The notes under the pieces: model-generated
Database searches by the model: none
The model's input: only the letters and a program-made list of their open reading frames with translations
Told to the model about the DNA's origin: nothing
Part shown: one piece after another, positions 14,988-24,792 of the stretch
Layout of the letters: each line of letters begins with the position of its first letter
How positions within the stretch are numbered: the first letter of the stretch is position 1
Made by a program: the position numbers and the translations under genes
NCBI GenBank assembly: GCA_020725895.1
Contig: DYTO01000009.1
Coordinates: 1 to 35,216, forward strand
DNA from: Candidatus Hadarchaeum sp.
GTDB lineage: Archaea; Hadarchaeota; Hadarchaeia; Hadarchaeales; Hadarchaeaceae
Direction: 5' to 3'
DNA length: 35,216 bases

Positions 14988-16954
<1,967 letters not shown>

Positions 16955-16958
<4 letters not shown>

Positions 16959-18133
16959 TCTTCCACCTCCACGTCCTTCAGGCCCAGCCATCTCAACGGC
17001 TTGCCCACCTTTCCTGATTTCGCCGCCGCTTCCGTCTCGTCGATCACCGAGTCGATGTCTGCGGGGGTTATGTCTCGACCGGCAAGTCCACAAATGAAAT
17101 CTATCGCAGGGATTTTCAAATTGGCCGATGAAAGGGAAGTTGCGACATCCAGGAACAGCCCTCCTGAAGAGCCGAGTGAGATGTCCTTCTCCATTACCGC
17201 GATCGCCTTAGCGTTACCGACCGCCTCGACCAACTCTTCTCCTGGGAAAGGCCTGAAAGATCTCAGCCGGACCATCCCGATCTTTTTCCCGCGTCTCCTC
17301 CTCTGGTCGATCACATCCTTCAGGGCGTTGCCTAACGAGCCCATCGTTACTATGATCACGTCAGCGTCGTCGCTGCCGTAGCGCTCGAGCAAGCCGTACT
17401 CCCTGCCGAACCTTTTTCCAAATTCTTTCCCGACTTCTGCGATGACCTTCTTGGAATCCATCAGCGCCTCGTGGAGCATGTAGCGGAACTCCGTATAATG
17501 AGCCGGTATCCCAACAGCGCCGACTGTCGTGGGTTTGTCCGGGTCCAGGGAATATGGATAACTGTATGGCGGGATGAAATTGTCCACCTCATTCTGCTGC
17601 GGCACGTCGACTGGCTCGGCAGTGTGCGAGAGTATGTAGCCGTCGTAACAGACCATCACCGGCAAGAGGGTTCTCTCGGCGATGATGAAGCTCTGCAGGA
17701 CTGTGTCGAGTATCTCCTGGTTGTTCTCGCAGTAAAGCTGGATCCAGCCCGAATCGCGGACGGAAATCGAGTCCTGCTGGTCGCACCATATGCTCAGGGG
17801 TGCAGACACCGAGCGGTTGGCGTTCGTCATCACTACCGGGAGCCTGAGTCCCGAAGCCACGAATAGCATCTCGCTCATCAGCATCAGGCCCTGCGATGAG
17901 GTCGCGGTGAAAGCACGGACACCCGTGGCCGCGGCGCCTATGCACGCGCTCATGGCGCTGTGCTCTGACTCGACCCGGATGTACTCCGCGTCAAGCTCAC
18001 CATCTGCTATGAAGTCGGCCAGCTTCTCGACGACCACCGTCTGCGGGGTTATCGGATATGCAGGGACGACCTGGACGCGGGCGAGCCTCGCTGCGATTGC
18101 CGCCGCCTCGTTGCCGTTCAGGACTTCCCTCAC
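16955..18133 (-). CDS. porA: Pyruvate (2-oxoacid):ferredoxin oxidoreductase alpha subunit
   Basis: VREVLNGNEAAAIAARLARVQVVPAYPITPQTVVVEKLADFI...RVESEHSAMSACIGAAATGVRAFTATSSQGLMLMSEMLF...SIWCDQQDSISVRDSGWIQ. GTG start at 18133 with a 4-bp overlap of porD. Confidence 0.95.
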
Positions 18134-20367: not shown

Positions 20368-20407
20368 TAAGTGTTTAAACGCAAAAAAATAATTGTGTTA
20401 TGAGAGG

Positions 20408-20773
20408 ATGAGGAGAAACTCTATCAGGCCTCCGTGCGAAATAATAGTAAAAAAGCTATTTCCGGCATTAAGAGCGGCACTAGTTGAGGAACTGATTAAT
20501 AAGCATAAGCTGACGCAAATCCAAGTTGCTGAAAAACTCGGCATAACCCAGCCCGCGATCAGCCAGTACGTCAACCAAGCGCGCGGAGCGGAATACAAGA
20601 AAATATTGAAATTTTTCGAACTCGACGCCGAGGTAAAGAAAATGGCTGCCGCAATCGCGAAAAATAGAATACAGTTCCCGAACAAGTTCCAGATATACTG
20701 CGAGATCTGCACAAAAATGAAGAAGAAGATAAATGAAAGCTTGCTGCTGAAAGAGTTCAACAACAAAAAATAA
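20408..20773 (+). CDS. HTH transcriptional regulator (COG2522-like) with C-terminal CxxC
   Basis: IRPPCEIIVKKLFPALRAALVEELINKHKLTQIQVAEKLGITQPAISQYVNQARGAEYKK...FPNKFQIYCEICTKMKKK. Confidence 0.82.
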   Translation: MRRNSIRPPCEIIVKKLFPALRAALVEELINKHKLTQIQVAEKLGITQPAISQYVNQARGAEYKKILKFFELDAEVKKMAAAIAKNRIQFPNKFQIYCEICTKMKKKINESLLLKEFNNKK

Positions 20774-20822
20774 TCCAAAAATCGCTTTTAATTAGAGTAT
20801 GCGGATGTTATATTGGGATCAG

Positions 20823-21995
20823 ATGAACGCTTACTTCGACAACGGGACGACCACCCCGGTCGCGAAAGAGGTCCTGGACGCGATGCTTCCATACTTCAGG
20901 GAGAACTTCGGCCACCCTATTTTCATATATTCCCTCGGGCAGGAAGCGGCCGAGGCGATCGAGAGGTCGCAGAAAATAATCTCGCGGACGATAAACGCGA
21001 AACCAGAGGAGATAACTTTTACCTCGAACGGCACTGAGTCGATAGACCTGGCGATCCGCGGGGCAGCCTACGCCAACCGCAGGAAGGGAAACCACATAAT
21101 CACTACAAATGTAGAGAACCCGTCCGTGCTCAGAGTGTGCGACAAGCTTGAGAGCGATGGGTTCAAGGTAGACTATATCGCCGTTGACAAGCAGGGCCTT
21201 GTGGACCTGGACCAATTGAAAAAAACTATCAACGACAAGACTATTCTCGTGAGCGTTGCGAACGTCAATGACGAGATTGGGACGGTACAGCCTGTGGACG
21301 AAGTAGCGAGGATTGTCCGTGAGCAGGGGCGGAAGATATTTTTCCACGTAAACGCGATCGCCGGTTACATGAGGGTCCCAGTAGATGTCGAGCGCCTCGG
21401 CGTCGACATGCTGAGCCTGAGCGCCCACAAGATCCACGGGCCGAAGGGCGTTGGCGCGCTTTATCTGCGAAAAGGAACGAGGATCGAGCCACTCAACTAC
21501 GGCTACGTCTCGATGTCTGGGCTGAAGCCCGGCACCGAGAACGTCGCGGGGATAGTTGGCTTCGCGAAGGCTGCCGAACTCGCGTCGGACAGGTTCGATA
21601 GAAACGTCAAGAAGATGCTCGAGCTCAGGGAACGGTTGATGAAAGGAATCGAGGAAAGGATGTCCTATTACCTGCTTCACGGCCCACGTGGTGAGAAGAG
21701 AAGCCCGGCCAACGTCAACTATTCCTTCAAGGGGGTCGAGGGCGAGGCGATACTCCTGAGGCTTGACCTAGAAGGGGTGTCCGTCGCGACAGGCTCGGCC
21801 TGCTCGACGAGGAAACTCGAGCCAAGCCACGTACTCACGGCCATCGGGATAAAGCCCGAGGTGGCGCACAGCGCGACGAGGTTCACCATCAGCTGGCAGA
21901 ACACACCCGAAGAGGTTGACTACGCACTTGACGTTCTGCCTGGGGTGATTGAGAACCTGAGGAAGATAAGCCCGATAAAGGCGGAGGATATGTGA
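20823..21995 (+). CDS. IscS/NifS-like cysteine desulfurase homologue with altered PLP-site residues
   Basis: YFDNGTTTPVAKEVLDAMLPYF...TFTSNGTESIDLAIRGAAY...SLSAHKIHGPKGVGALY (PLP Lys)...ATGSACSTRKLEPSHVLTAIG (catalytic Cys). ORF opens at 20799; ATG 20823 fits homologues better. Confidence 0.92.
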   Translation: MNAYFDNGTTTPVAKEVLDAMLPYFRENFGHPIFIYSLGQEAAEAIERSQKIISRTINAKPEEITFTSNGTESIDLAIRGAAYANRRKGNHIITTNVENPSVLRVCDKLESDGFKVDYIAVDKQGLVDLDQLKKTINDKTILVSVANVNDEIGTVQPVDEVARIVREQGRKIFFHVNAIAGYMRVPVDVERLGVDMLSLSAHKIHGPKGVGALYLRKGTRIEPLNYGYVSMSGLKPGTENVAGIVGFAKAAELASDRFDRNVKKMLELRERLMKGIEERMSYYLLHGPRGEKRSPANVNYSFKGVEGEAILLRLDLEGVSVATGSACSTRKLEPSHVLTAIGIKPEVAHSATRFTISWQNTPEEVDYALDVLPGVIENLRKISPIKAEDM

Positions 21996-22396
21996 TGCCA
22001 GCAGAGTACACGGAAAGGAGCCTGTTGAAGTACAGCCAGAAGCTGATCGAGATGTTCAAGAACCCGAAGAATATCGGGGAGATGGAGAACCCGACGGTTA
22101 CGGCGGACGAGGGGGACGTCCAGTGCGGGGACGCTTTCAGGATGTTCCTGAAGATAGAGGACAACGTGATTGTCGACGCGAAGTTCCTCTCTTTTGGATG
22201 CGCGGCCAACATCGCGACCGGTGCGGCGACGACAGAAATAGTGAAGGGCAAAACGGTGGATGAAGCCGAGAAGATAACTATCAAAGAAATCACGGAAAGT
22301 CTCGACGGGCTACCGCCTCTGAAGATGCACTGCGCGACTCTCGCCTTCAAGACGCTGAAGAAGGCGCTCGAGAACTACAGGAAAATGCAGAAGTGA
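21995..22396 (+). CDS. iscU: IscU/NifU-N-type Fe-S cluster scaffold protein
   Basis: NPKNIGEMENPTVTADEGDVQCGDAFRMFLKIEDNVIVDAKFLSFGCAANIATGAATTEIVKGKTVDEA...GLPPLKMHCATLAFKTLKKALENY; the three ligand Cys and the CGD Asp are present. Confidence 0.94.
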   Translation: MPAEYTERSLLKYSQKLIEMFKNPKNIGEMENPTVTADEGDVQCGDAFRMFLKIEDNVIVDAKFLSFGCAANIATGAATTEIVKGKTVDEAEKITIKEITESLDGLPPLKMHCATLAFKTLKKALENYRKMQK

Positions 22397-22400
22397 ACAG

Positions 22401-23096
22401 ATGGGCGAAGTAGCGATCCCGAAATTTTTGGACGCTTGCATAATCTCAAATGGCCTGGAGGTCAGCGAGTTGATGGGGCTGAGGAAGGACGCGATAATGT
22501 ACGTCCAGCCCTGCGCCTCGGAGCGCGGGAAGCTCATGGCCGACATAGAATTCTCCAAGAACCTCGACGCACAGTTCTTCGACACCAATGTCCTCTGCTC
22601 GCTTCTCGAGACTCACAGAAGGAGGTTCGCCGAGCTCAAGTGCAGTCCGAGCCTCGGCGTGGCGAAGGTCAAGTGGAAGGGGCGGGAGATGAGCATTTTC
22701 AAAAACGGGAAGCTCAAGATACAGCGGGCGCCGACCCGCGAGGAGATAGCGAAGATCGCGAACTCGACGGCGCGGCTGATCTGGGGTGCTGTCTTCTGCG
22801 AAGTCTGTGGCAAGCCTGCGCTTGCCTGTGCGTCGGGCGCGTGTGGGAAGTGCAGGACTGGGGAGCACAAAGCCAACGTCGATGAGATGCCGAGCGGTGA
22901 CCTTCTGAAGCAGGCACTTGATGCTTTCGAATCCGCGCGAAAGAATCCTGAGGAGGCAGAGAAGAATTTCCAGAAGGCGAAATATTTCGCGCTGCATTTC
23001 GTGGAGGAAACTCCCGAAAAGAAAAACGCTGCCGCGGGTCTCGCTCTGATCTCCGAAGTCGAAAAATCGGGACAAGCTAAGGCTCAACGGTCTTGA
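22401..23096 (+). CDS. Uncharacterised Cys-rich protein, third gene of the iscS-like/iscU module
   Basis: 231 aa; CEVCGKPALACASGACGKC cluster plus Cys in DACII, QPCAS, VLCS, LKCSP; starts 4 bp after iscU. Confidence 0.65.
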   Translation: MGEVAIPKFLDACIISNGLEVSELMGLRKDAIMYVQPCASERGKLMADIEFSKNLDAQFFDTNVLCSLLETHRRRFAELKCSPSLGVAKVKWKGREMSIFKNGKLKIQRAPTREEIAKIANSTARLIWGAVFCEVCGKPALACASGACGKCRTGEHKANVDEMPSGDLLKQALDAFESARKNPEEAEKNFQKAKYFALHFVEETPEKKNAAAGLALISEVEKSGQAKAQRS

Positions 23097-23499
23097 ACGA
23101 CTCTGAAAGCGGGTGCCCCTTCGAAGTCAGGGAGAAAACTTTTTCCCACCCAAAGGGCGCCTTCCTTACCTCGTAGCCGGTCTCTGTCAGTTTCTCGCGG
23201 AGTTTGTCGATGATTTTCTTCGCGACGTCCGGCTTGCCCGTCTCAGCGGAAAGGTGGACGAAAGGATAGACGACGAGCTTCCTAGCGCCGACCCTCTTCG
23301 CGCCGACGTCTATCTCCTCGGCTCCCTTTTGCACGACGCTGGGGATGTCCTTCTCGTCCTTCTTCTCGATCGTGACGAAAACAACGAGGGCATCTTTGAT
23401 GCCACAGCTCTTGCACTCCTCCGTGATCTCCTCGGCGAATTTCGTCTTTTTTGTGACCTCGAACGAAAAGAAATCGCAGTGTATCAGCAGTACCTTCAT
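23077..23499 (-). CDS. Free-standing archaeal threonyl-tRNA synthetase editing domain protein
   Basis: MKVLLIHCDFFSFEVTKKTKFAEEI...VGARKLVVYPFVHLSAETGKPDVAKKIIDKLREKLTETGYEVRKAPFGWEKVFSLTSKGHPLSESFK; matches the archaeal ThrRS N-terminal editing-domain pattern, ends after 140 aa. Confidence 0.85.
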   Translation of the reverse strand: MKVLLIHCDFFSFEVTKKTKFAEEITEECKSCGIKDALVVFVTIEKKDEKDIPSVVQKGAEEIDVGAKRVGARKLVVYPFVHLSAETGKPDVAKKIIDKLREKLTETGYEVRKAPFGWEKVFSLTSKGHPLSESFKTVEP

Positions 23500-23583: not shown

Positions 23584-24792
23584 ATGCTAGATGTGGTGAA
23601 CATTAGGAATGATTTCCAAATCCTGAAGACGGGAGTGATTTATCTGGACAGCGCCGCAAGCAGCCTCACGCCAGAGCCAGTCATAGAGAAGATGCTGGAG
23701 TTCTACCGCGGCTACAGGGCGAACGTGGAGCGCGGCATCCACAGGCTTTCGCAAAAGGCGAGTGACGAGCTCCTGAAGGCGAGGCGGAAGGTGCAGAGTC
23801 TGATAAACGCGGGGTCAGATTCGGAGATAATTTTCACAAAGAACACGACGGAGGGGATAAACTCCGTGGCGAACGGGATAGAGTGGAATAAGGGAGACAA
23901 GGTCGTGACGACTCTCTTGGAACACCACTCGAACCTGGTTGTTTGGCAGAGGGCCGCCCGAAGGTCCGGACTGAAACTCGAGCTGGTGCAGCCAGACAAG
24001 GAGGGCCTCTTCAACATCGGCGATTTCGAGAGGGCGATTGACGAGAAGACTAGGCTTGTCGCCGTCGCGCATGTCTCGAACGTGCTCGGTAGCCTGCTCC
24101 CCGTCAAGGAGATAACAAAGATTGCTCATACACGTGGCGCTGAGGTCCTGGTCGATGCCGCGCAGTCGGTGCCGCACATGCCGGTTGACGTCAGGGCGCT
24201 CGGCTGCGACTATCTCGCATTCTCAGGCCACAAGATGCTCGGGCCGACGGGGATAGGCGTACTTTTCGTCGGGGAGGGGCTTCTGAAGAGTCTCGAGCCG
24301 TTCTGCGTCGGAGGCGGTACGATAGAGGAGGGCGGGCTCGAGGATTACGAGCTCGGGCCTTCGCCGGCGAGGTTCGAGGCCGGGACCCCTCCGATTGCCG
24401 AAGCGATAGGGCTCGGCGGAGCGGTCGACTACATTTCAAAAATAGGCCTCGGTGAGATCGAGAAGCACGAGCGTGGCCTGATGGAAAAAATGTACTCCGG
24501 ACTTTCCGGGATATCGAATGTGGAGGTCTACGGGCCCAGCGACCCCAAGAAGCGCGCCGGCATCCTCTCTTTCAACGTTGAGGGGATGGGGCCGCACGAC
24601 GTCGCGGCTATCCTCGACAACACTGCGAAGATAATGGTGAGATCTGGACAACACTGCGCGATGCCACTCCACACGAAGCTCCTGAACAGACCGAACGGGA
24701 CAGTGCGGGCGTCCATCTACGTTTACAACACTAAAGAAGAAATTGAGAAATTCATAGCTACCGTTGATGAGATCTCCAGGACGCTAGCCTAG
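23584..24792 (+). CDS. sufS: SufS-type cysteine desulfurase
   Basis: GVIYLDSAASSLTPEPVIEKM, LLEHHSNLVVWQ, VLVDAAQSVPHMPVDV, AFSGHKMLGPTGIGVLF, RFEAGTPPIAEAIGL, VRSGQHCAMPLH. Confidence 0.95.
   Translation: MLDVVNIRNDFQILKTGVIYLDSAASSLTPEPVIEKMLEFYRGYRANVERGIHRLSQKASDELLKARRKVQSLINAGSDSEIIFTKNTTEGINSVANGIEWNKGDKVVTTLLEHHSNLVVWQRAARRSGLKLELVQPDKEGLFNIGDFERAIDEKTRLVAVAHVSNVLGSLLPVKEITKIAHTRGAEVLVDAAQSVPHMPVDVRALGCDYLAFSGHKMLGPTGIGVLFVGEGLLKSLEPFCVGGGTIEEGGLEDYELGPSPARFEAGTPPIAEAIGLGGAVDYISKIGLGEIEKHERGLMEKMYSGLSGISNVEVYGPSDPKKRAGILSFNVEGMGPHDVAAILDNTAKIMVRSGQHCAMPLHTKLLNRPNGTVRASIYVYNTKEEIEKFIATVDEISRTLA

Follow-up and report, generated by a model that had tools for sequence, protein, structure and literature searches.

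The active site of IscS*, an IscS-like protein encoded in a genome of the Hadarchaeota, has been altered at several positions that matter for catalysis in E. coli IscS, and the reading that we favour, at roughly even odds (about 0.5), is that the protein gave up classical cysteine desulfuration and is now a dedicated partner of IscU, supplied with sulfur by SufS and standing in for SufBC. How archaea assemble Fe–S clusters is poorly understood, and where their minimal systems obtain sulfur is a matter of debate. The window referred to below is the whole stretch of DNA that was analysed, 35,216 nucleotides in length, and IscS residue numbers given without the word "window" are those of E. coli IscS.

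The IscS* gene and its clade

The gene for IscS* occupies 20823..21995 on the forward strand, and was recognised from the list of open reading frames, from its Pfam match to Aminotran_5 (class V aminotransferase fold, E 8e-73) and from its place in a clade of 12 members. The longest frame runs over 20799-21995 (+) and encodes 398 aa; since the orthologues begin in our multiple alignment at the position of window M9, the start is probably at 20823 and not at 20799, as the earlier note on this DNA had it. IscS* falls below the NCBIfam equivalog cut-offs of both IscS (365.1 versus 643.2) and NifS (450.7 versus 530.75). Over 386 columns it is 39% identical to E. coli IscS, and with A. fulgidus IscS2 the figure is 43%; along their whole length these two reference sequences agree with the PDB chains 1p3w and 4eb5. 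The AlphaFold model of IscS* is poor (mean pLDDT 53) and was left unused for placing the new residues.

A search of 40 related genomes returned nine further full-length orthologues from the Hadarchaeota, and two more came from 398 genomes searched in another archaeal phylum, both of them from one genus; together these 12 proteins (ten from Hadarchaeota and two from outside) form a single clade. Common to all of them are N35H, N80D, H104N, N155D, Q183A and G233Y, and the residues N104, D155 and D80 are found in 12/12 members and in 0/121 of the other IscS sequences (133 were compared). Of 62 columns that are near-invariant in canonical IscS, all 12 keep 46, while six (N35, N80, H104, N155, G233 and E236) are replaced in every member. 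Since the set is common to other Hadarchaeota and to a second phylum, it is the product of neither chance nor sequencing error, and the fixation of the new residues points to selection acting on an altered site, not to decay. We likewise reject the idea that the window gene is a decaying pseudogene, which is ruled out by its 63-71% identity to the nine other Hadarchaeota orthologues, by intact frames and by the fixed replacements. A real loss can be seen in genome G020 (L048:7375-7581), where a decayed remnant retains only the first ~64 residues of IscS*, with neither IscU nor X (the cysteine-rich protein described below) beside it.

The earlier note had suggested that the His-to-Asn, Asp-to-Asn and Gln-to-Ala changes might together define a clade that travels with IscU and the gene at 22401-23096. 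The first and last of these do exactly that, but D180N is present in all ten Hadarchaeota members whereas the two outside orthologues keep Asp, so that it arose later, inside the clade, and is ruled out as a mark by which to define it. In a maximum-likelihood tree of 103 sequences, which was a quick one with some long-branched rows, and in which the IscS* group was named only after the tree had been seen, the 12 proteins fall together (SH-aLRT 99), next to a sister group (SH-aLRT 95) that keeps Lys206 and has an altered site of its own, with H155 or N155, D183, V243, L354 and W240. The IscS types that have lost the lysine, including that of A. fulgidus, are placed elsewhere in the tree, and a common origin of IscS* with the A. 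fulgidus type was tried and rejected, the joint clade failing the AU test (p=0.00386). Judging by alignment and tree, then, altered IscS sites have arisen more than once within our sample, and the change set of IscS* is different from that of A. fulgidus IscS and evolved independently. Further archaeal IscS proteins without the lysine (L094, L110, L114, L115, L100 and L056, with Arg, Thr or Leu at 206) all keep Cys328, and some are encoded beside a canonical IscS.

What has been replaced and what has been kept

The PLP of E. coli IscS has His104 stacked on its ring, Asp180 in contact with its pyridine N1 and Gln183 in contact with its phenolate oxygen; Asn155 and Arg354 form part of the pocket lining (PMC9978102). 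The mutants H104Q, D180G and Q183E are each inactive with PLP still bound, and R354K is fully active (PMC9978102); it should be said that the D180 and Q183 mutants carry Gly and Glu, not the Asn and Ala of IscS*, and that each was tested singly. In the window protein, on the forward strand throughout, the ring-stacking His104 is replaced by window N107 (21117..21119), the pocket residue Asn155 by window D158 (21270..21272), Asp180 by window N185 (21351..21353), and Gln183, the partner of phenolate O3', by window A188 (21360..21362). Two further replacements lie at Asn35, now window H39 (20913..20915), a histidine otherwise found in 6/121 sequences, all six in the sister group, and at Asn80, now window D83 (21045..21047). 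With three positions replaced that are each indispensable in E. coli IscS, classical desulfuration by IscS* is unlikely, and the suggestion in the earlier note that the protein is no classical desulfurase has become the better bet because E. coli IscS with H104, D180 or Q183 mutated one at a time is inactive (PMC9978102).

The retained residues are just as consistent. The Schiff-base Lys206 (window K211, 21429..21431, +) and the mobile-loop Cys328 (window C335, 21801..21803, +) are present in 12/12 members, as the earlier note had read them in this one sequence, and Cys328 is in fact Cys in all 133 IscS sequences compared. Arg354 (window R361, 21879..21881, +), which is replaced in the Archaeoglobus-type lysine-less IscS, is likewise kept in 12/12, together with T76, S203 (T in one member), H205 (window H210) and T243, four residues that we take to form the phosphate cup. 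G233 and E236 lie within the segment that leads to T243, and in this segment the window protein also has H235 to S238, E236 to M239, R240 to K243 and S241 to P244 (the second residue of each pair in window numbering). The earlier note's H-to-N, D-to-N, Q-to-A, HE-to-SM and NVND changes are all present and hold in the multiple alignment; R240 to K is ruled out as a feature of the clade, with K in eight and R in four of the 12, and N35H, N80D, G233Y, the kept Arg354 and the contrast with SufB had escaped that reading.

This pattern of loss and retention brings up two rival explanations. It is highly improbable, in our opinion, that IscS* is an ordinary active desulfurase in which the changes are tolerated, or are compensated by, for example, window His39 and Asp83. 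The catalytic Lys, Cys and Arg354 are kept and two fixed new ionisable residues do sit at normally invariant positions, yet single mutations suffice to inactivate the E. coli enzyme (PMC9978102), and among the 133 sequences only two others keep Lys206 while having neither His104 nor Gln183, each of them in the altered sister group. More deserving of attention, although still rather doubtful, is the idea that IscS* is still a PLP enzyme, one whose ring surroundings have been rewired and which carries out, for example, slow or partner-activated desulfuration or a beta-elimination of sulfide from cysteine. Here the phosphate cup and Lys206 would hold PLP, Arg354 would perhaps hold substrate, and the Asp/Asn exchange of N155D and D180N, with the loss of His104 and Gln183, would alter the reaction. 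The 12/12 conservation of Lys206, Arg354 and the phosphate cup, and of the new residues, looks like selection and not decay; the two outside orthologues keep Asp180; in the sister group Lys206 likewise persists, in a site altered in another way (H155, D183, V243, W240); and PLP binding survives in the E. coli mutants at the positions concerned (PMC9978102). Set against this are the simultaneous replacement of three residues that E. coli IscS cannot do without, and the linkage to SufS, which suggests that sulfur is made elsewhere. A further objection lies in the role of Asp180, which in proteins of this fold type adjusts how PLP acts as an electron sink. Anchoring of PLP through its phosphate and the lysine may persist in IscS* while the ring electronics change.

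IscU, protein X and a candidate regulator

Directly after IscS*, and overlapping it by 4 bases, comes the gene for the IscU scaffold (21992..22396, +; NifU_N, E 4e-38), in which the cluster-ligand positions C45, D47, C70, H113 and C114 are invariant in the alignment. This is followed, beginning 4 bases past IscU, by a gene for a cysteine-rich protein that we call X (22401..23096, +), and the order of IscU and then X after IscS* holds in 10/10 Hadarchaeota loci and in both loci outside the phylum. That IscU keeps its five ligand positions and follows IscS* everywhere speaks for IscS* as an IscU partner. In the Hadarchaeota, NifU_N occurs only beside IscS* or beside an Archaeoglobus-type IscS, and the latter type of IscS-IscU pair is found at L049-L052 (genomes G013, G008, G024 and G003), together with IscS* in three genomes and preceded by a DsrE-like gene in 3/4 loci. 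One IscU, in G011 (L040:8048-9550), is split by an in-frame intein exactly at a cluster-ligand Cys (FG/C...HN/CAANIATG, with slashes at the junctions), its NifU_N matches flanking LAGLIDADG and intein domains. Another in-frame intein, with a LAGLIDADG-like region, is carried in the window by a pyruvate:ferredoxin oxidoreductase beta-subunit-like gene (14988-17093, -; Intein_splicing E 1.5e-13).

Protein X has no family match in Pfam, NCBIfam or PDB sequences. Nine cysteines (C13, C38, C66, C81, C133, C136, C143, C148 and C151) are invariant in its ten Hadarchaeota members and all nine are present in the two outside homologues. The predicted model is confident (pLDDT 88), and its Foldseek matches are partial and TBP-like only (best E 0.03, TMq ~0.3), so that in the model a TBP-like fold amounts to a partial resemblance. 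A scan of a public genome collection matched X only in the Hadarchaeota and did not pick up the second phylum's divergent X, which was found through the IscS* neighbourhood. A divergent relative that keeps seven of the cysteines lies directly upstream of, and overlaps, SufS on a 4.1 kb contig of G026 (L162:2764-3306), a genome in which neither IscS* nor SufB was detected.

Upstream of the core, 25 bases before the longest IscS* frame, lies a gene for an HTH_3 (XRE) regulator (20393..20773, +), whose homologues are found near nine other IscS* loci. Its Cys15 and a C-x2-C motif (C103, C106) are invariant across the two phyla, and on these grounds the protein is a candidate Fe–S-responsive regulator. 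Between X and SufS, on the opposite strand (23077-23499, -), the window encodes a free-standing archaeal ThrRS editing domain (tRNA-Thr_ED, E 1.5e-43), homologues of which occur near the IscS* cluster in L039, L040, L042, L043, L044 and L047.

SufS as neighbour, SufB as counterpart

At 23584..24792 (+), 1.6 kb downstream of IscS*, the window encodes a SufS with Aminotran_5 at E 7e-135 and the canonical motifs EHHSN, VDAAQS, SGHKM and RSGQHCAMPLH that the earlier note had pointed out; it scores 471.7 bits with the sufS model, just under the cut-off of 475.1, and is the only canonical cysteine desulfurase that a scan of the window's own genome found. The earlier note's proposal of SufS as a sulfur source gains support from the second phylum, where the genes run HTH-SufS-IscS*-IscU-X in tandem on a single strand, SufS and IscS* being separated by 5-8 bases, and from the repeated linkage of SufS to such genes. 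SufS lies within ~1.5 kb of 3/11 IscS* genes and 6/11 of the sister group, as against 1/55 for canonical IscS, 0/13 for the A. fulgidus type and 1/13 for other lysine-less types (9/22 for IscS* and sister group versus 1/55 for canonical IscS, p=3e-5, ignoring relatedness). The lack of SufE in all 28 Hadarchaeota genomes searched also counts in favour of SufS feeding IscS*, while against it must be set the fact that SufS does not adjoin IscS* in 7/10 Hadarchaeota loci. The incomplete genomes G010, G011 and G021 yielded no SufS.

A second strand of evidence comes from SufB (PF01458), the scaffold that archaea usually have, which is present in 17/28 Hadarchaeota genomes, being found in 2/10 of those with IscS* and in 15/18 of those without (Fisher p=0.003; 0.008 at completeness of at least 80% and 0.011 at at least 88%), counts which ignore relatedness and in which gaps in MAGs can mimic absence. 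Each of the genera g5, g7 and g8 has species with IscS* only and species with SufB only. SufB was not detected in either outside IscS* genome (98% and 100% complete), so that it is missing from 10/12 IscS* genomes overall; G005 and G024 carry both, and the exclusion is thus not absolute. Read most simply, this pattern means that IscS*-IscU-X takes the place of SufBC.

How might IscS* work?

In the reading that we favour, IscS* would dock IscU via its retained IscS framework and the C-terminal LR-x-[IM]-SP segment, as their conservation suggests. The neighbouring SufS, linked genetically and the only canonical desulfurase found, would take sulfur from cysteine, and this sulfur would pass as persulfide to the mobile-loop window Cys335 or arrive as sulfide. 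Window Cys335 would then present sulfur at the IscU site, or serve there transiently as a ligand of the cluster, much as Cys321 does in A. fulgidus; X might conceivably take part in cluster loading or hand-over; and the whole unit would do the work of SufBC (SMS), the archaeal scaffold. It counts against this reading that Lys206, Arg354 and the phosphate cup, for which a protein acting only as a scaffold has no need, are all retained; the lysine-less Archaeoglobus type, with Asp or Ser at 206 and Asn at 205, has lost Lys206, His205 and Arg354 together.

The A. fulgidus precedent, brought up in the earlier note, is sound: that protein has Asp in place of the PLP lysine and is no longer active (PMC7585200), and in the IscS-IscU structure Cys321 of this inactive IscS ligates the IscU cluster (PMC7585200, PMC9769115). 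Like IscS*, A. fulgidus IscS2 (PDB 4EB5/4HVK) and Methanosarcina acetivorans IscS1 adjoin IscU, have an altered PLP site and keep the loop Cys, classical desulfurase activity being reported as absent in the former and predicted to be absent in the latter. Both lose Lys206, however, which IscS* keeps; A. fulgidus IscS2 has Asp at 206, Asn at H205 and Leu at R354, all three retained in IscS*, and keeps His104 and Asp180, of which IscS* has changed the first in all 12 members and the second in the Hadarchaeota. It is conceivable, although in our view unlikely, that IscS* is a sulfide-era scaffold partner of this same kind, giving only window Cys335 as a cluster ligand and stabilising IscU, with sulfide entering IscU directly and SufS serving other thiolation. 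Sulfide can indeed feed E. coli IscU without IscS under anaerobic conditions (PMC13015791) as well as archaeal SmsCB (PMC12192291), and most SufB genomes without IscS* also have SufS. What weighs against such a partner is the retention of Lys206 and Arg354, an AU test that rejects shared ancestry with the Archaeoglobus type (p=0.004) and the linkage to SufS, seen nearby at 0/13 loci of that type versus 9/22 of IscS* and its sister group.

Other known systems help to place IscS*. With E. coli IscS and bacterial NifS (group I) it has in common Lys206, Cys328, Arg354, the phosphate cup and the LR-x-x-SP segment, and it differs from them at H104, N155, Q183, N80, N35, G233 and E236 in 12/12 members and at D180 in the ten from Hadarchaeota. 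Like the minimal ISC system (MIS), IscS*-IscU is a two-gene core without adjoining carrier genes, but its desulfurase site is altered and SufS, X and the HTH regulator are linked to it. SMS (SufBC) has the same presumed role in general Fe–S cluster assembly, with an unrelated scaffold, and across the Hadarchaeota is largely exclusive with IscS*-IscU-X. A bolder proposal, which we put forward only tentatively, is that SufS-IscS*-IscU-X is a distinct archaeal Fe–S machine in which SufS charges IscS*, be it a non-desulfurase or a re-specialised PLP protein, and X is a new cluster handler, the whole having been swapped with SufBC several times independently, whether it replaced SufBC or vice versa.

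What it means

IscS* is a naturally re-engineered IscS whose conservation spans two phyla and whose gene order links it to IscU, to SufS and to a new cysteine-rich protein. The PLP lysine is missing in 42/133 of the IscS sequences compared, and "cysteine desulfurase" is thus an unsafe annotation for many archaeal IscS genes. If our favoured reading is true, the role of IscS as a partner of IscU can be studied apart from catalysis, and desulfuration would have been lost repeatedly by the IscU partners of archaea.
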